NCBI GenBank assembly: GCA_947569705.1
Contig: CANOSP010000001.1
Location: forward strand, 186,001 to 250,000
Length of the DNA: 64,000 nt
Origin: an uncultured Erysipelotrichaceae bacterium
GTDB lineage: Bacteria > Bacillota_I > Bacilli_A > Erysipelotrichales > Erysipelotrichaceae
Direction: 5' to 3'
The position numbers and the translations under genes are program-made. The notes beneath the pieces were generated by a model. That model saw nothing but the letters and a program-made list of their open reading frames with translations. It had not been told where the DNA came from and did not search any database. Positions 351 through 8,951 of the stretch are shown here, piece after piece (position 1 is the first letter of the stretch; each line of letters begins with the position of its first letter).

Positions 351-494
351 ATGGAATTGTATCTGTCTTTTTTTGTGCCCAAAGAAATGCCTGAAAGCTT
401 CGGCGATTCACTTAAGAGAGTTGCGGAATCACACACTTATCGTGTAAATGCTTACAAAAAGTGTGATAAAGTGAAAATAGTATTTGAGAAATGA
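351..494 (+). CDS. possible small protein of 47 residues between ileS and rny
   Basis: An ATG at 351 is preceded six bases earlier by AGGTG (340-344) and opens 47 codons ending in TGA at 492-494. The product begins MELYLSFFVPKEMPES and is slightly basic and rich in K and E at the end; no membrane segment or known motif is visible. The codon mix (GAA, AAA, TTT, GTG, GCG) resembles the neighbouring genes. It lies 21 bases after ileS, and its last codons overlap the -35 box of the rny promoter at 484. I do not recognise the family, so this is a candidate supported by a ribosome binding site and codon use only. Confidence 0.45.
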   Translation: MELYLSFFVPKEMPESFGDSLKRVAESHTYRVNAYKKCDKVKIVFEK

Positions 495-512
495 GGCAAA
501 ATTCTGTATAAT
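484..512 (+). promoter_or_regulatory. housekeeping promoter for rny
   Basis: TTGAGA (484-489), a 17-bp spacer and a perfect TATAAT (507-512) form a sigma-A-type promoter. Transcription would start near 519. The first transcribed bases (520-536) are a perfect dyad, GTGAGAAA-A-TTTCTCAC, so the mRNA would begin with a hairpin or the site could bind a protein. Confidence 0.75.
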
Positions 513-567
513 AATAGATGTGAGAAAATTTCTCACGGAATATGTAAGGACGAACGGAGGAAAAATC

Positions 568-2115
568 ATGGATATGATGAGCGTTGCGTCCGGGTTGGCA
601 GGTCTTGTTTTAGGAATCCTATTAATGATTGTGATTGCTAAAGCAGGTTTAAATAAAAATCAACAAAAGGCCGATTTATTGCTTAAGGAAGCAGCGTCCA
701 AAGCGGACACTGTGGTAAAGCAGGCGGTATTAGACGGTCGTACTCAAGCACATGATCTGAAAATTGCAGCGGAAAAGGAGATTAAAGAGCGCAAGGCAGA
801 GGTTACCGATATGGAAAACAAGCTGTTGCGTCGTGAAGATAATCTTAATTTTCGCGATGAAACTTTAACGAGTAAAGAAAAGCAATTAGATGTGAAAAGT
901 GCGCAATTAACTGAAAAAATGTCAAAACTGGACGAGAAAGAAAAAGAATTACAGGCTAAAATTGATGTACAGGTAGAGGAGTTGGAGCGTGTAGCTTCTT
1001 TATCCAGTGCCGAAGCCAAAGAGGAATTATTTGCGATTGTAGAAAAACGCATGGAAAATGAAACAATGGCTTATATCAAGGAAAAAGAAGATGAAGCCAG
1101 AGCGATTGCCGATGAAAAGGCACGCAATATCGTGGCGCTGTCTATTCAGCGCTTATCTCAGGATGAGGCGATCGAGCGTACCGTATCGGTAGTTGCACTG
1201 CCGAGTGAAGAAATGAAGGGTCGTATTATCGGTCGTGAAGGCCGTAATATTAAAGCGATTGAGCAGGCAACCGGTGTTGATTTAATCATTGATGATACAC
1301 CGGAAACAATTACGGTTTCCTGCTTTGATCCGATTCGCCGTGAAATCGCTCGCTTGGCGTTGGAACATTTGATTAAAGACGGACGCATTCAGCCGGGCCG
1401 TATCGAAGAGGTTGTCAATAAGATCAAAAAGGAAATGGATGCGAATATTGCCAAGGTCGGTGAGGAAACGGTATTTAAACTTGGTATCGGCAAGATCGAT
1501 CGTGAGATCGTGAAGCTGATCGGACGTTTGAAGTATCGTTATTCCTATGGTCAAAATGCGTTGCAGCATTCCATTGAGGTTGCGAATTTATGCGGATATA
1601 TGGCAGTGGAGTTGGGGTTAAATCAAAACCTTGCGAAGCGTGCCGGACTTTTGCATGATATTGGAAAAGCCTTGGATACCGAAGTAGAAGGAAGTCATAT
1701 TGAACTGGGTTATAAATTCTGTAAGAAACACGGTGAGCGTGAAGTTGTATTGAATGCAATTCAGTCACATCACGGCGAAGTTGAGGCTAAGTTCTTAATT
1801 TCCAACTTGGTGATTGCTGCCGATACTATATCGGCAGCACGTCCGGGAGCGCGTTATGAGTCTTTACAAAACTATATCAATCGTTTGGAAGAATTAGAGC
1901 GCATCACAAAGTCCTTTGACGGTGTTGAATCTTCTTATGCAATTCAAGCCGGCAGGGAAGTACGTGTCATGGCAGTGCCGGAAAAATTAGATGATATTGC
2001 CTGCCATAAGCTGGCACGTGATATCAAGGATAAGATTGAGGCAGAATTAACTTATCCGGGACAGATTAAGGTAACGGTCATTCGCGAAACACGTTCCTGT
2101 GAATTAGCGAAATAG
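568..2115 (+). CDS. rny: ribonuclease Y
   Basis: RNase Y is the membrane-anchored endoribonuclease that starts mRNA decay in Firmicutes. The 515-residue product has an N-terminal membrane helix (about residues 5-25), a long charged coiled coil (about 30-200), a KH RNA-binding domain with the GREGRN signature, and an HD domain with 'LLHDIGKA' supplying the metal-binding His-Asp pair. Length matches the family (about 520). I chose ATG 568 because GGAGG (556-560) sits seven bases upstream; the frame is open further upstream to 484, but that extension has no ribosome binding site and overlaps the promoter. ymdB starts two bases after the stop, so the two are co-transcribed, an arrangement also known in Bacillus. 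Confidence 0.96.
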   Translation: MDMMSVASGLAGLVLGILLMIVIAKAGLNKNQQKADLLLKEAASKADTVVKQAVLDGRTQAHDLKIAAEKEIKERKAEVTDMENKLLRREDNLNFRDETLTSKEKQLDVKSAQLTEKMSKLDEKEKELQAKIDVQVEELERVASLSSAEAKEELFAIVEKRMENETMAYIKEKEDEARAIADEKARNIVALSIQRLSQDEAIERTVSVVALPSEEMKGRIIGREGRNIKAIEQATGVDLIIDDTPETITVSCFDPIRREIARLALEHLIKDGRIQPGRIEEVVNKIKKEMDANIAKVGEETVFKLGIGKIDREIVKLIGRLKYRYSYGQNALQHSIEVANLCGYMAVELGLNQNLAKRAGLLHDIGKALDTEVEGSHIELGYKFCKKHGEREVVLNAIQSHHGEVEAKFLISNLVIAADTISAARPGARYESLQNYINRLEELERITKSFDGVESSYAIQAGREVRVMAVPEKLDDIACHKLARDIKDKIEAELTYPGQIKVTVIRETRSCELAK

Positions 2116-2117
2116 TT

Positions 2118-2891
2118 ATGAGAGTATTGTTTCTCGGAGATATTGTCGGTAAAAGCGGTCGCTTATGTATGAAAGAGCAGCTGCCGCAGCTGAAAGCACA
2201 ATATCATCCGGATTTAGTGATAGTGAACGGTGAAAATGCCGCTCACGGTAAAGGGATTACCAAAAAAATCTATCATGAGCTGTTAGGCTATGGTATTGAT
2301 GTGATTACGATGGGAAACCACACCTTCTCCAAAAGTGATATATATCAATTTATCAATGAGGCAGATCGTATGGTTCGCCCTGCCAATATGGAGCCGCTCG
2401 GCTACGGGCGCAGTACGCTGATTCTGCAGCTCAATTCCAAGCGCATTGCCGTAAGTAACCTGTGTGCCGAAATCTTTATGAACAATGTGACGGAAAGCCC
2501 GTTTGCTTGTATGGAGCGTATTTTAGCAGGCATTGATGTGGATTATCATTTTGTTGATCTGCACGGTGAGACAACAAGCGAGAAAATTGCCTTTACGTAT
2601 CAGTTTGCCGGCAGAGTACAAGCGATCGTCGGTACTCATACCCATGTACAAACAGCTGATGAGCGCATAATCAACGGCTGCGCGGCAATCAGTGATCTCG
2701 GGATGTGCGGTGCTTACCACAGTGTTTTGGGACGTGATACGCAAGAGGTATTGGAGCGCTTTGTCAATCAGGCAAAAACGCACTATAAAATCGCAGGAGG
2801 TCCTGCCGTTCTGTGCGGACTGCTCGTGGATTTTGATGATTCACGCAATCAAGCGATAAAAGCGGAGCGAATTCAAATTCGTCCGCTGTAA
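2118..2891 (+). CDS. ymdB: YmdB-family metallophosphoesterase
   Basis: This 257-residue protein matches the TIGR00282 metallophosphoesterase family. YmdB of Bacillus hydrolyses 2',3'-cyclic nucleotides and influences biofilm and motility decisions. The di-metal ligand motifs are visible: 'FLGDIVG' at the N-terminus, 'NGENAAHG' near residue 38, 'GNHTF' near 75 and 'GTHTHVQTADE' near 175. It begins two bases after the rny stop and is probably translated by coupling. The operon ends in the hairpin at 2901. Pairing with an RNase makes a link to handling of RNA breakdown products plausible, but that is inference. Confidence 0.92.
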   Translation: MRVLFLGDIVGKSGRLCMKEQLPQLKAQYHPDLVIVNGENAAHGKGITKKIYHELLGYGIDVITMGNHTFSKSDIYQFINEADRMVRPANMEPLGYGRSTLILQLNSKRIAVSNLCAEIFMNNVTESPFACMERILAGIDVDYHFVDLHGETTSEKIAFTYQFAGRVQAIVGTHTHVQTADERIINGCAAISDLGMCGAYHSVLGRDTQEVLERFVNQAKTHYKIAGGPAVLCGLLVDFDDSRNQAIKAERIQIRPL

Positions 2892-2900
2892 TATGTAATG

Positions 2901-2932
2901 AAAGCACCTAAATGAATGCGGTGCTTTTCTTT
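2901..2932 (+). terminator. rho-independent terminator after rny-ymdB
   Basis: AAAGCACC (2901-2908) pairs perfectly with GGTGCTTT (2920-2927), followed by a T-rich tail. Confidence 0.8.
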
Positions 2933-3007
2933 CAGGTGAGGTTGTTTTGCGAAAGGTTAAGTTTAAAAAATGATAAAAAATTCCAACCTTCACTAATCAA
3001 AAAATGC

Positions 3008-3036
3008 TTGCAAGCTTAGCTTAATATGTGTATAAT
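3008..3036 (+). promoter_or_regulatory. housekeeping promoter for the ferredoxin gene
   Basis: TTGCAA (3008-3013), 17-bp spacer, perfect TATAAT (3031-3036); AGGAGG follows at 3050-3055, before ATG 3064. Confidence 0.75.
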
Positions 3037-3063
3037 GTACATAGTTAAAAGGAGGAATAAAGA

Positions 3064-3237
3064 ATGCCAGTTAATGTAAATCAGGATACTTGCATCGGTT
3101 GCGGTGCATGTGTAGGTGTTTGCCCGGTTGGCGCATTATCCATGAACGATGACGGAAAATCTCAGTGCGATGAGGGTACTTGCATCGACTGCGGCTCTTG
3201 TTTATCCGCTTGTCCGGTAGACGCAATCAGCCAGTAA
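3064..3237 (+). CDS. 2[4Fe-4S] ferredoxin
   Basis: A 57-residue protein carries two clostridial-type cluster motifs: CIGCGACVGVCP in the first half and CIDCGSCLSACP in the second, each C-x2-C-x2-C-x3-CP. Such ferredoxins carry low-potential electrons in anaerobes, for example to pyruvate:ferredoxin oxidoreductase, hydrogenase or radical-SAM enzymes. ATG 3064 follows an AGGAGG with good spacing. The gene is monocistronic, with its own strong promoter and terminator, as expected for an abundant carrier. The neighbouring miaB product is an iron-sulfur enzyme, but no functional link is shown by the sequence. Confidence 0.95.
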   Translation: MPVNVNQDTCIGCGACVGVCPVGALSMNDDGKSQCDEGTCIDCGSCLSACPVDAISQ

Positions 3238-3261
3238 AACCAAGCATTGCTTGGTTTTTTT
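3237..3261 (+). terminator. terminator after the ferredoxin gene
   Basis: AAACCAAGC (3237-3245), loop ATT, GCTTGGTTT (3249-3257), then Ts. The arms pair perfectly. Confidence 0.85.
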
Positions 3262-3297
3262 CAAGATTTGGTATTCTTTTAGAATAAGGAGCTTATG

Positions 3298-4734
3298 ATG
3301 AAAAAACAACCCGGTTGGGCGCTTCCCGATTTAAAGGCAGCTCAAGTGCGCACAAAGCAGGAAGCAGCGATCCGACATGAATTATTCAGCGTGCCTGATT
3401 CCATACAGGGAATCGGTGTCAATAAACGCTATTTTTTAAGAACCTACGGCTGTCAGGCAAATGAGCGAGACGGTGAAACAATTGCCGGTATTATGGAAAC
3501 ACTCGGCTTCACTGCCACAGCTTTGGAAGAAAATGCCGATGTGATTATTTTGAATACATGTGCAATTCGTAAAAATGCCGAAGATAAAGTATTGGGCGAA
3601 TTAGGCGCATTAAAACGACTGTATAAAGAAAATCCCGATTTGGTGATCGGTCTTTGTGGCTGTATGGCACAGGAAGAAGAAATCGTACAGCTTTTATTAG
3701 CGAAATACCCGCAGGTTAAACTTATTTTCGGAACGCATAATATCCATCGCTTGCCGATGCTTCTGGCACAGGCAATGCAGAAGGAAAAAACAATTGAAGT
3801 ATTTTCGGCAGAAGGTGAAGTGATCGAAGATTTACCGGTGAAGCGCTTCGGCAAGCATAAGGCATGGGTCAATATCATGTACGGATGCGATAAATTCTGT
3901 ACATACTGCATTGTCCCTTATACAAGAGGAAAAGAGCGCTCTCGCGCAACCGAAGATATTTTGAAGGAAGTGCGTGAACTGGCAGAACAAGGCTATCAAG
4001 AGGTTACTTTATTGGGGCAGAATGTCAATTCCTACGGCAAGGATTTGGCACTGCAGGGCGGTTTCGCGACTTTACTCGCTGAGTGCGCAAAAATCGGTAT
4101 TCCGCGCATTCGCTTTATGACCTCGCATCCGTGGGATTTCAGTGATGAAATGATTGATGTGATTGCGCAATATGATAATATTATGCCGTTTATTCACTTA
4201 CCGGTACAATCCGGTGACAGCGCTGTTTTGAAGCTGATGGGCAGACGTTATACCATTGAGGAATATCGTGATTTATTTCATCGAATTAAGAATCGTGTGA
4301 AAAACTGTGCGTTTTCCACCGATATTATTGTCGGCTTTCCCAACGAGAGTGAGGAACAGTTTCAACATACATTGGATATTGTGAATGAGTGTCAGTTTGA
4401 CAATGCTTATACCTTTATCTATTCACCGCGAGAGGGAACACCGGCTGCGAAAATGACGGACAATATACCGCTTGAAGTGAAGCAGGAACGTCTGTATCGT
4501 TTAAATGAACTTGTAAATCACTATGCGAACTTAAATAATGCGGCGTATCAAGGAAAAATCGTTAAGGTACTGGTAGATGGTCCGAGTAAAAAGAATCCGC
4601 AGATCACCAGCGGTTATACAGAGACAAATAAGCTTGTGAACTTTGTGAGTAAAAATGCACAGTGCGGTGATATTGTCGAAGTGCGTATCACTGATGCGAA
4701 AACATGGTCATTAGACGGTGAACAGGTAGGATAA
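3298..4734 (+). CDS. miaB: tRNA-2-methylthio-N6-dimethylallyladenosine synthase
   Basis: MiaB adds the methylthio group to C2 of N6-isopentenyl-A37 in tRNAs reading UNN codons. The product (478 residues) has the N-terminal MTTase domain with three cluster cysteines ('YGCQANERD', 'LNTCAIRKNAEDKV', 'GLCGCMAQ'), a radical-SAM motif CDKFCTYC near residue 200, and a C-terminal TRAM-like domain ending near 'VEVRITDAKTWSLDG'. The RNAEDK signature separates MiaB from the MtaB paralogue at 60.4 kb. AAGGAG (3286-3291) favours ATG 3298; ATG 3295 is also in frame but sits only three bases after it. The roughly 50-residue N-terminal extension before the MTTase domain is common in Firmicutes MiaB. Confidence 0.95.
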   Translation: MKKQPGWALPDLKAAQVRTKQEAAIRHELFSVPDSIQGIGVNKRYFLRTYGCQANERDGETIAGIMETLGFTATALEENADVIILNTCAIRKNAEDKVLGELGALKRLYKENPDLVIGLCGCMAQEEEIVQLLLAKYPQVKLIFGTHNIHRLPMLLAQAMQKEKTIEVFSAEGEVIEDLPVKRFGKHKAWVNIMYGCDKFCTYCIVPYTRGKERSRATEDILKEVRELAEQGYQEVTLLGQNVNSYGKDLALQGGFATLLAECAKIGIPRIRFMTSHPWDFSDEMIDVIAQYDNIMPFIHLPVQSGDSAVLKLMGRRYTIEEYRDLFHRIKNRVKNCAFSTDIIVGFPNESEEQFQHTLDIVNECQFDNAYTFIYSPREGTPAAKMTDNIPLEVKQERLYRLNELVNHYANLNNAAYQGKIVKVLVDGPSKKNPQITSGYTETNKLVNFVSKNAQCGDIVEVRITDAKTWSLDGEQVG

Positions 4735-4758
4735 AAAGTGAAGGTTTTCACTTTTTTT
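4735..4758 (+). terminator. terminator after miaB
   Basis: AAAGTGAA (4735-4742), loop GGTT, TTCACTTT (4747-4754) and a T run. Confidence 0.85.
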
Positions 4759-4790
4759 CTGTTTTTTTGAATGCCATTTTATGATAAAAG

Positions 4791-4799
4791 TGGTATAAT
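4791..4799 (+). promoter_or_regulatory. extended -10 promoter for the RNase J gene
   Basis: TGG followed by perfect TATAAT (4794-4799) gives an extended -10 element. No clear -35 box lies at the right spacing. Confidence 0.55.
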
Positions 4800-4882
4800 A
4801 CTTATTAGTATGGCAATTATGAACAAGCATTTATTTTATGGTACATCACATAATAAATAAAAATTGAAAGGATGGAAGTCTT

Positions 4883-6544
4883 ATGGATCAAGTACGCATA
4901 TTTGCGCTCGGAGGACTCGATGAAAACGGTAAAAACATGTATGTAGTCGAAGTCAATGAAGCGATTTTTGTGATTGAAGCAGGTTTGAAATTTCCCGATA
5001 CCGAACAATTAGGAGTGGAGTTTATCATTCCTGATTTCTCATATTTAATTGAAAACAAGGAACGCATCAAGGGAATCTTTATCACCCACGGTCATGATGA
5101 TGTCGTTGCGGCGTTGCCGTATTTGCTGAAACAGATCAAAGCACCTGTTTATACCGGAGCGCTGACCGCAAATATTATTCATGACATGTTGAAAAAGGAA
5201 AATGTGAAGGGGGTAAAAATCCATCGCATCAAGCGTTCCAGTGTGCAGCGAATCAGCGGTGTGAAGGTCAGAACTTTCCCGATGACACATGCATATCCCG
5301 ATAACTTCGGTGTTGCGATCATGAGTGATCAAGGAGCGATTGTCTATACCGGTGAATTTATCATTGATTATGATATGCTCTCAGAGCAGTATATTTGTGA
5401 TCTGAATGAATTAAGTGATATTGGAAAAAGCGGTGTATTATGCTTATTGAGTGAATCTCAGGGAGTAGAGCGTAGCGGTCATACGGCGCCGAATCATCGC
5501 ATTACCAATTTGATTGAGCCGATCTTTGAGAAAAATCACGGACGTATTTTGATTTCCGTGTATCGTCAAAGCTTATATCGAGTGATTGAAATCATTGAAA
5601 TCTGTAAGCGAATGAATAAACCGATCTATTTTCATGACAAGGAACTGCGTCAGCTGTTAAAGCAGCTGGAGGATATTAAGTATTATCAGGTTCCGCGCGA
5701 ATTGGAAGTAAAGGAATGGAACTTCAGCGATGGGGTGGAAGATGTAGTAATCGTCATCAGCGGATCAGGTAAAAATCTGTTCCGTACGATGAATAATATT
5801 GCGAATCATGAGGATTCTCGCGTATCATTTCGACCGAGTGATACGATTATTATGGCGTCTCCCGTTGTCAGCGGTACCGAAATGGAAGCAACCGACATGG
5901 AAAATGACATTTATAAGGAAGGCGGACATATTTTCTCGCTCAGCTCTAAGACGGTATTATCCATGCATCCCAGCAGTGAGGATTTAAAGATGATGCTGTA
6001 TCTGTTCAAGCCGAAGTATTATATTCCCGTCAAAGGAGAATATCGTCATTTGGTGATGAATGCGAATTTAGGCGTATCGATGGGATATTCACCGGATCGT
6101 ATTCTAATTTTGGATAACGGTCAGATTGCGGCATTTGAAAACGGTGTGTTAAAGAGTGCTTCTCAATATTTAGAACTGGAAGATACATTAATTGACGGTA
6201 AGGAAAATTGGGATGTGACCGGAGTCGTTTTAAAGGATCGTGAGACGCTTTCTACCGACGGAGTTATGATTGTCGGTGTCGGTGTTAATATGAAAACAAA
6301 AAAAGTGATTAACGGACCGGATGTACAAACGCGCGGGCTGATCTATTTAAAGGATGCGGATTATATTGTCAAAGAGGTTGCCGGTATGATGGAAGAGTGT
6401 ATCGCCACTGCCGTGAAAGAAAAGCGTTATGATAATTTAACGGTTCGCGGGGAAGCCAGAGATAAAATTACGAGGTATTTAATGAAGGAAACAGGCAAGC
6501 GCCCGATGGTGTTGCCGGTGATTATGGAAATTAATGTAGGATAG
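4883..6544 (+). CDS. rnj: RNase J family protein with degenerate metal site (J2-like)
   Basis: Ribonuclease J enzymes are beta-lactamase/beta-CASP exo- and endonucleases of Firmicutes RNA decay. This 553-residue protein has the full architecture: metallo-beta-lactamase fold, beta-CASP insert and C-terminal domain. The ligand set is damaged: H69-G-H71-D-D73 is intact but the next His is Val74, the TGDF aspartate is Glu158, and the His of PVHGEYR is Lys384; H136 and H362 remain. Loss of several ligands is typical of RNase J2-type subunits, which pair with an active J1. I infer a J2-like structural or regulatory partner with weak or no intrinsic activity; an active copy should lie elsewhere in the genome. 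ftsK begins 19 bases downstream, so the two are likely co-transcribed. Confidence 0.9.
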   Translation: MDQVRIFALGGLDENGKNMYVVEVNEAIFVIEAGLKFPDTEQLGVEFIIPDFSYLIENKERIKGIFITHGHDDVVAALPYLLKQIKAPVYTGALTANIIHDMLKKENVKGVKIHRIKRSSVQRISGVKVRTFPMTHAYPDNFGVAIMSDQGAIVYTGEFIIDYDMLSEQYICDLNELSDIGKSGVLCLLSESQGVERSGHTAPNHRITNLIEPIFEKNHGRILISVYRQSLYRVIEIIEICKRMNKPIYFHDKELRQLLKQLEDIKYYQVPRELEVKEWNFSDGVEDVVIVISGSGKNLFRTMNNIANHEDSRVSFRPSDTIIMASPVVSGTEMEATDMENDIYKEGGHIFSLSSKTVLSMHPSSEDLKMMLYLFKPKYYIPVKGEYRHLVMNANLGVSMGYSPDRILILDNGQIAAFENGVLKSASQYLELEDTLIDGKENWDVTGVVLKDRETLSTDGVMIVGVGVNMKTKKVINGPDVQTRGLIYLKDADYIVKEVAGMMEECIATAVKEKRYDNLTVRGEARDKITRYLMKETGKRPMVLPVIMEINVG

Positions 6545-6563
6545 AGATGATCGGAGGGATCTT

Positions 6564-8951
6564 ATGGCCAAGAACAAGACAAGAAAAAACAATAAGAAAA
6601 AACAAAAGGAAAATGAAATTCTGCTTTATGTTTATGCGTTGTTTATGATTACCTTGTCCTTGATCGGCGGTTTACAGATCGGTTTTGTCGGACAGCTGTT
6701 GACCGGATGTGTGAAATTTGTATTCGGTAATTTATACGGCATCGTCTACGGTGTAGTGATATTGTTTGCGATTTTGTTAATGCTGAAGCGATCTTTTCAG
6801 GAAATCCCGCTGAATTATACGGTCGGTGTCGGGGTATTATTTACGGCATGGCTGTTAGCGGCTTCGATTCCCGATGATCAAACGATGAAGGGTATGGCAG
6901 TGTTAAGTAATTTTGTTGGCAGTACGGCACAAATCTTCGCCGGTGAGTTAGCTGCCGGAGGCGGTTTGGTCGGTGCGATGCTGGTCAGTATTGCGTCATT
7001 TCTGTTTGATTATACGGGAACATGGATGATTATTGTCGCTTTATTAATTCTCGGTTTGATTCTGCTTGCGAGCGGGGCATTTATGGATTGGATGTCCGGT
7101 GCGAAAGAAAAGATCAAAGAGCCGTTAGAAAGCGTGAAATCACAGAATAAAGAACGCAGAACGCAGAAAAAGGCGGCTAAACAGGAAGCGCGTCAAAAAG
7201 CGAAAATGGCGAATATTCGCGCTGATGAGCCAATGGAAGATGAACAGGATCAAAGCATTCTGTCGCGCATGAGCTTAGAAGAACGCGTGAAAAAAGGACA
7301 GGTGTCTTTTTTGGAAGCCGATGAAGATCGGGAAGCTGATCCTGCACAGGACTTAGAAATATTAAATGATGATATAGATATGGAAGCAACAGCGATTTCA
7401 ACACCTGTTGTACAAAGTGAACCGGATGAAAATCAGCGAATTATTAATGAAACCATCGGTAAGCAGGATACGTTTGTATCGCAGTTTACCGAAGACTATT
7501 CCAATTATCGTTTACCGCACTTGAAGCTGTTAAAGGACAGCGGTAAAAAGGGAAAATCGATCAATAATATCAATGCGGCTAATGACAGCGGCAGACGCTT
7601 GATTGAGATCTTAGATCAATTCGGTGTAAAAGCGACTTTGGTGGCAACCCATATCGGTCCCGCCGTCACAAAGTTTGAAATCAAACCGGATTTAGGTGTG
7701 CGGGTCAATAAGATTTCCAATCTTCAATATGATATTAAAATGGCTTTGGCTGCGAAGGATATTCGTATTGAAGCACCGATACCGGGAAAATCGGCAGTCG
7801 GTATTGAAATTCCGAATGTTGAAAAAACAGCAGTATCGATGAAAGAACTGATGAAACAGATCCCGCCGCAATATGAGGATAAAAAACTGGCAGTTGCGTT
7901 GGGAAAGGATTTAATGGGAAACTGTATTTACGGCGAATTGAATAAAATGCCGCACTTATTAATTGCCGGAGCGACCGGCAGCGGTAAGTCTGTTTGTGTA
8001 AATACGATCATAACTTCTTTATTGATGCGCACCAAGCCGGATGAAGTAAAATTATTGCTTGTGGATCCGAAGAAAGTGGAATTCACTCCGTATCGAGCTA
8101 TTCCGCATTTATTGGGACCGGTTATTACCGATGGGGAAGAAGCCAATCGGGCATTAAAGGTAATTGTCAATATGATGGATAATCGATATGAATTATTCTC
8201 TATGGCAGGAGTAAGAAATATTGCCGGATACAACGGCTATATTGAAAACCATCCGGAAGAGGGACTGAAAAAGCTTCCTTGGATTGTAGTGATTATTGAT
8301 GAGTTGGCAGATTTAATGCTTGTGGCAGCGAAAGAGGTAGAGTCCAGTATTCAGCGTATCACGCAGCTGGCTCGTGCTGCCGGGATCCATTTGATTGTAG
8401 CGACACAGCGTCCGAGTGTTGATGTAATTACCGGTATTATTAAAGCAAATATTCCTTCACGTATCGCATTTGCGGTATCCTCTGCGGTTGATTCGCGAAC
8501 GATATTGGATCAAGTCGGCGCTGAAAAGCTGTTGGGTCTCGGCGATATGTTATACATACCGGTAGGTGAACAAGTAGCGACGCGTGTTCAAGGAGCTTTT
8601 GTTTCTGATGAAGAGGTAGCGGCAATTTGCGATTTTGTCAGCCGTCAGGCGAAGCCGAAGTATGAAGATGCTTTCCTGCGCTTGGAAGCGTTGGACGGCG
8701 GCATCGAAGCGACTTCGAGCGCTCCGGGCCATGATGATCCGCTCTATGAGGAAGTAAAGGATTTCGTGATTTCTACACGTAAGGCAAGTACTTCTTTGAT
8801 TCAGCGAAAATTCAGTATCGGATATGCTCGTGCGGCACGTTTGATTGATGTGTTGGAAGAAAGAGGCATCATCGGACCGGCTCGCGGCAGTAAGCCTCGT
8901 GAAGTATATGCGAAAAGCAGCGAGGACAGCGAATCTGATATGGAGATGTAA
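6564..8951 (+). CDS. ftsK: DNA translocase FtsK/SpoIIIE
   Basis: This 795-residue protein pumps DNA through the division or sporulation septum. It has a basic N-terminus, four to five membrane helices (about residues 20-170), a charged linker (about 175-310), an alpha/beta ATPase motor with Walker A GATGSGKS near residue 470, Walker B in 'VVIIDELADLM', and a C-terminal gamma winged helix that reads polar KOPS/SRS-type sites (ending 'RGIIGPARGSKPREVY'). GGAGG precedes ATG 6564. Sequence alone does not tell FtsK from SpoIIIE/SftA roles; the genome sporulates, so a SpoIIIE role is plausible. The two M16-type genes follow, as they do near spoIIIE in Bacillus. Confidence 0.95.
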   Translation: MAKNKTRKNNKKKQKENEILLYVYALFMITLSLIGGLQIGFVGQLLTGCVKFVFGNLYGIVYGVVILFAILLMLKRSFQEIPLNYTVGVGVLFTAWLLAASIPDDQTMKGMAVLSNFVGSTAQIFAGELAAGGGLVGAMLVSIASFLFDYTGTWMIIVALLILGLILLASGAFMDWMSGAKEKIKEPLESVKSQNKERRTQKKAAKQEARQKAKMANIRADEPMEDEQDQSILSRMSLEERVKKGQVSFLEADEDREADPAQDLEILNDDIDMEATAISTPVVQSEPDENQRIINETIGKQDTFVSQFTEDYSNYRLPHLKLLKDSGKKGKSINNINAANDSGRRLIEILDQFGVKATLVATHIGPAVTKFEIKPDLGVRVNKISNLQYDIKMALAAKDIRIEAPIPGKSAVGIEIPNVEKTAVSMKELMKQIPPQYEDKKLAVALGKDLMGNCIYGELNKMPHLLIAGATGSGKSVCVNTIITSLLMRTKPDEVKLLLVDPKKVEFTPYRAIPHLLGPVITDGEEANRALKVIVNMMDNRYELFSMAGVRNIAGYNGYIENHPEEGLKKLPWIVVIIDELADLMLVAAKEVESSIQRITQLARAAGIHLIVATQRPSVDVITGIIKANIPSRIAFAVSSAVDSRTILDQVGAEKLLGLGDMLYIPVGEQVATRVQGAFVSDEEVAAICDFVSRQAKPKYEDAFLRLEALDGGIEATSSAPGHDDPLYEEVKDFVISTRKASTSLIQRKFSIGYARAARLIDVLEERGIIGPARGSKPREVYAKSSEDSESDMEM

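Follow-up and report, generated by a model that had tools for sequence, protein, structure and literature searches.

An RNase J2 orthologue of an Erysipelotrichaceae bacterium with a degenerate second metal site

Organization of the rnjB locus

We analyzed a stretch of 64,000 nucleotides from an uncultured Erysipelotrichaceae bacterium (assembly GCA_947569705.1, contig CANOSP010000001.1, positions 186,001 to 250,000), hereafter referred to as the window. The genes for RNase Y, a YmdB-like phosphodiesterase, MiaB, RNase J2 and an FtsK-type protein lie in a row (484-8951) and form a compact RNA-decay neighbourhood, which comprises the following features:

484-2115, plus strand: RNase Y, upstream neighbour
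2118-2891, plus strand: YmdB-like phosphodiesterase, upstream neighbour
3295-4734, plus strand: MiaB, upstream neighbour
4733-4756: weak GTGAA/TTCAC hairpin with a T-run just past miaB, found by eye and absent from the terminator scan
4771..4799, plus strand: candidate rnjB promoter ATGCCA-17-TATAAT with TG before the -10 element, from a promoter scan in which promoter-like matches were no more common than in shuffles
4883..6544, plus strand: rnjB, RNase J2 orthologue of 553 amino acids with an ATG start and the domain order metallo-beta-lactamase, beta-CASP, RMMBL and RNase J C-terminal
6564..8951, plus strand: ftsK/spoIIIE-type gene, 19 nt past the rnjB stop codon with a GGAGG site in between

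The YmdB-like and MiaB proteins were named from their sequences. Of the Erysipelotrichales J2 loci whose downstream sequence spans 1200 nt or more, all 66 have an ftsK-type gene 3' of the J2 gene; among the remaining J2 loci, this applies to 11 of 22. The upstream order recurs as well, with miaB 5' of the J2 gene in 44/48 relatives and RNase Y at most 4 kb upstream in 23/30. Among the matches listed from the open-licence literature, we found no paper on point that links rnjB with ftsK/spoIIIE. An rnjB–spoIIIE neighbourhood is presumably also present in B. subtilis.

Family assignment and the intact RNase J1 of the same genome

The description of the window protein as an RNase J paralogue in the initial annotation was borne out by profile searches. 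The protein reached 428 bits against TIGR00649 (RNase J family; cut-off 400) and exceeded the gathering scores of the expected Pfam domains PF00753/PF12706, PF22505, PF07521, and PF17770, with the beta-CASP domain PF22505 matched at 44 bits vs. 177 bits in the RNase J1 of the same genome. Its score of 446 against NF047419 (RNase J1) stays below the cut-off of 820, so that it is not an RNase J1 by profile. Furthermore, it lacks the residues of a canonical two-metal RNase J1, i.e., the complete HxHxDH motif, the Asp of TGDF, and the motif C His, which are replaced by V74, E158, and K384. The top PDB sequence match was S. epidermidis RNase J2 (6k6w; E-value 4e-112), followed by B. subtilis J1. 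Among named organisms, 'Bacterium c-19' (99%), Longicatena, and Amedibacillus were closest, which identifies the host as an Erysipelotrichaceae bacterium.

The assembly (98.47% complete) holds two RNase J genes, namely the window gene and a copy at positions 5063-6694 of contig C20 (584 bits), along with one further weak RNase J match of 50 residues. The search for a second rnj gene with an intact site, which had been suggested as a check, thus yielded the C20 copy: it carries HGHEDH, TGDF, HTTGH, and PIHGEYK, has no altered catalytic residue, and scores 844 bits against the RNase J1 profile NF047419, above the cut-off of 820. Both proteins are homologous over their full length with the same domain order and share 27% identity. 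Co-occurrence with an intact J1 in one genome, a hallmark of RNase J2, was therefore found here. The C20 copy is adjoined by a gene which we take, from its sequence, to be peptide deformylase-like (def). Judging by the gene order that we assume for B. subtilis, the gene for RNA polymerase epsilon would be expected between def and J1; none was seen in the 255-nt gap between the two genes.

An order-wide search gave an RNase J match in 146 of 148 genomes and at least two matches in 143 of 148. A loss of RNase J in the two genomes without a match (G041 and G060, both of the same family) was considered and rejected, as RNase Y was also blank there and the entries are apparently unreadable. Likewise, we do not interpret TAA/TAG codons in the J2 rows of relatives as internal stops; these rows mostly end at query positions 551-553 rather than 550, which fits a normal terminal stop.

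Active-site residues

Residues were mapped by aligning the window protein with the intact RNase J1 of its own genome. J1 residues H95, H97, D99, H100, H164, D186, H391, and H413 correspond to H69, H71, D73, V74, H136, E158, H362, and K384 in the window protein. The codons of interest are located as follows:

5087..5104, plus strand: motif I, codons 69-74, HGHDDV for HxHxDH; His79 of B. subtilis J1 is replaced by Val74 (alignment)
5288..5290, plus strand: His136, first-metal ligand, retained (alignment; 59/69 Erysipelotrichales J2)
5354..5356, plus strand: Glu158 for the bridging Asp of TGDF, giving TGEF, cf. Glu166 of S. epidermidis J2 (alignment; PMC7864078)
5954..5968, plus strand: motif B, codons 358-362; first His replaced by Val358, second His retained as His362 (alignment)
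6032..6034, plus strand: Lys384 for the motif C His, giving PVKGEYR (alignment)

Every residue assignment of the initial annotation holds in this alignment, which applies to the retained H69, H71, D73, H136, and H362 as well as to Val74, Glu158, and Lys384 at the metal-ligand positions H100, D186, and H413 of J1. In addition to the three altered ligands, further changes had been overlooked earlier: the first His of motif B, which belongs to the 5'-phosphate pocket (H387 in the own J1), is V358, the Asp of SDST is E191, and two beta-CASP segments are altered (CTGSQGEP to ISGSGKNL and GRSME to HDKEL).

In RNase J1, one metal is coordinated by H74, H76, H142, and D164 and the other by D78, H79, D164, and H390, as given in PMC7864078. 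The altered positions of the window protein belong to the second metal site, whereas H69 and H71 are first-metal ligands and D73 is the proposed general base. The latter role has been proposed for D88 of S. coelicolor in PMC4652760, and we took D88 as the equivalent of D73. While the first set of ligands is complete with Glu in place of Asp, only D73 and Glu158 are retained from the second. This distinguishes the window protein from RNase J1 (the C20 copy and B. subtilis 3zq4) with its two complete metal sites. Second-metal ligands are not conserved in the window protein, which agrees with the RNase J2 features described in PMC7864078 and PMC5383250, the latter having already noted this loss in J2s. 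The window protein is an ordinary RNase J2 with half of the metal-binding catalytic site gone.

Several missing catalytic residues could in principle point to a decaying pseudogene or an assembly error. Chance or sequencing error was dismissed because the same residues recur across 69 Erysipelotrichales sequences from many assemblies, and the reading frame is full-length. Moreover, dN/dS values were 0.015, 0.023, 0.024, and 0.055 in four of seven pairs (7 of 77 loci used; dS was saturated in the other three pairs). The gene is under strong purifying selection, which refutes decay; we therefore consider this explanation extremely improbable.

Phylogeny and conservation of the catalytic positions

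A FastTree phylogeny was calculated from 143 sequences, i.e., 138 loci, two queries, and three PDB chains. The 138 loci were selected from 186 homologous ORFs by manually removing duplicates from the own genome along with loci that were short or only partial (L001, L002, L004, L074, L093, L104, L126, and L133), and furthermore ORFs shorter than 480 aa, all but four members of the near-alike lineage L105-L131, and identical sequences. Homologues were drawn from the same class, and the phylum-wide search stayed within it, so that the tree is without Bacillales J2. The window protein fell into a J2 clade of 108 sequences together with 6k6w (support 0.991), the sole characterized J2 in the tree, and the C20 copy fell into the J1 group, in which 33/33 sequences are intact at all eight catalytic positions.

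Within the Erysipelotrichales J2, of which many are close relatives so that the counts do not represent independent events, H69, H71, D73, and H362 are invariant (69/69) and belong to the 40 fully invariant positions of 553. Val74 is present in 62/69 sequences and is never His; Glu158 and Lys384 occur in 65/69 and 62/69, respectively. H136 is kept in 59/69 and replaced by Gln in 9/69. In the J2 clade as a whole, 1/108 sequences still has the motif C His, and 17/108 have the final His of motif I. Motif C carries Lys or Arg in 83 of the 91 J2s without the motif I His and in none of the 17 that keep it, which mostly have Ile. Fitch parsimony places one gain of Lys on a 91-tip branch, and because of this single gain the association rests on few events. 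Coupling of the motif I and motif C losses is suggestive, but we did not accept it since it is confounded by phylogeny.

Some genomes of family f12 (G166 and G192) contain a third RNase J (L161 and L163). It has a full set of catalytic residues and branches off below the J2 clade, immediately outside it (support 0.999). It may represent a transferred clostridial-type copy; as the tree is without clostridial RNase J, we did not accept it as an ancestral active J2. In the reduced genomes G204 and G202, we observed J2-like copies that lack nearly all metal ligands (L164 and L170; KKNSADELKHE and NSNNADDI), showing what appear, from their sequences, to be further stages of decay.

Structure model and comparison with characterized proteins

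An AlphaFold2 model of the window protein was built from 27 sequences, using an alignment of 26 of 77 loci (pLDDT 86, pTM 0.75). Its best fold match was 6k6w (Z 50, 1.9 Å over 436 residues, ~33% identity over the fold alignment), followed by an integrative RNJ2–RNJ1 model and B. subtilis J1. As sequence, tree, and fold agree, we assign the window gene as rnjB, the RNase J2 orthologue of this Erysipelotrichaceae species.

Like the window protein, 6k6w has lost the last His of motif I and the motif C His and carries the Glu of TGEF. However, it has HGHEHA with His at the motif I Asp, Ala for Val74, and Gln for Lys384, and it retains both His residues of motif B, with QGEP and GRS largely retained. 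PMC7864078 lists His80, Ala81, Glu166, and Gln392 at the equivalent positions of S. epidermidis J2, with one Mn bound, and proposes a single-metal mechanism.

The fold-match list also included chains of CPSF73 and INTS11. Their inactive beta-CASP partners are CPSF100 and INTS9, respectively. The theme of pairing an active with a degenerate beta-CASP protein is alike, but these eukaryotic proteins are distant and serve as an analogy only.

Proposed function of the window protein

By analogy with other J2 proteins, the window protein probably serves J1 as a partner subunit in a heteromer and would itself be weakly active or inactive. Following the J2 literature, J1 would contribute the bulk, if not all, of the 5' exonuclease activity of this complex, and J2 would stabilize or tune it. 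The S. aureus genetics described below, with a J1 active site that is required and a J2 active site that is dispensable, also speaks for such a role. The cluster of His69, His71, His136, and Glu158 would hold one metal ion at best, so that its own activity should be weak, with Asp73 as a possible general base and Lys384 probably occupying the place of the second metal ion. For most J2 proteins, published reports describe low activity and binding to J1. For E. faecalis J2, whose ligand numbering H69/H71/D73 is that of the window protein, the reports give a KD of 74 nM for J1 and a weak exonuclease activity.

Several points stand against this partner role. According to the same reports, the H69A and H71A variants of E. 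faecalis J2 abolish the weak activity and do not restore pilus production, for which activity is described as necessary; in vivo, pilus control thus needs both residues. PMC6759994 describes S. mutans J2 as potently active. J2 proteins are therefore not necessarily silent scaffolds. Furthermore, invariance of H69, H71, D73, and H362 (69/69) is at least equally compatible with retained chemistry, and J1 is located on a separate contig, so that no co-operon backs the pairing.

These observations lend themselves to a reading in which the window protein is a slow single-metal nuclease that acts independently of J1 on a small transcript set of its own, with the metal on H69, H71, H136, and E158 and water activated by D73. 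The strict conservation of H69, H71, D73, and H362, the mechanism proposed for S. epidermidis J2, and the loss of both weak activity and pilus rescue in the E. faecalis H69A and H71A variants all favour it. On the other hand, H136 is Gln in 9/69 sequences, RNA loading should be poor given that motif B lacks its first His and the beta-CASP domain its QGEP and GRSME segments, and the active site of J2 is dispensable in S. aureus, where the J1 active-site mutant resembles the J1 deletion and the J2 active-site mutant resembles the wild type, as reported in PMC3937233. We regard an independent nuclease as rather unlikely.

The S. aureus genetics would also suit a catalytically dead scaffold, i.e., a pseudo-nuclease whose conserved residues are needed just for folding or the passage of RNA, as would the loss of the second-metal ligands and the beta-CASP RNA-pocket motifs and the PF22505 score of 44 bits vs. 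177 bits in the own J1. Strict invariance of H69, H71, D73, and H362, at four of only 40 such positions in 553, would be unexpected without a bound metal, and we give this explanation somewhat less than an even chance. The partner role alongside J1 is the reading we prefer. The initial annotation had proposed loss or change of nuclease activity as for J2-type subunits: the J2 type agrees with sequence, tree, and fold, but "lost" appears too strong, and "changed or weak" is better supported because H69, H71, D73, and H362 are invariant in 69/69 sequences.

We also considered that in the Erysipelotrichales J2s and related J2 lineages the lysine permanently replaces the second metal, its charged side chain filling the metal-2 pocket and thereby fixing a one-metal (or RNA-guiding) module of the J1–J2 complex. 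This is favoured because Lys or Arg occurs in 83/91 sequences where the motif I His is lost vs. 0/17 where it is kept. As there are few independent origins, and exceptions with Met, Ser, Glu, His, or Gln (6k6w), we put it forward tentatively and hold it to be improbable. Among the matches listed from the open-licence literature, nothing relevant to such a replacement was found beyond the S. epidermidis paper, and no paper on RNase J2 in Erysipelotrich* was found in that literature.

Significance

RNase J2 is a well-known subunit, and the degeneration of its second metal site has been described before. What appears modestly new is that, in J2s of the Erysipelotrichales, the lysine in the second-metal site is almost fixed and the RNA pocket has decayed, with a loss of this pocket beyond that of S. 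epidermidis J2. The analysis tells the two RNase J genes of this Erysipelotrichaceae genome apart, with J1 as the likely enzyme and the window gene as J2. Published results on the importance of J2 activity disagree between S. aureus, E. faecalis, and S. mutans, and the natural motif C variants (Lys, Ile, and Gln) could be used to probe whether this activity matters.
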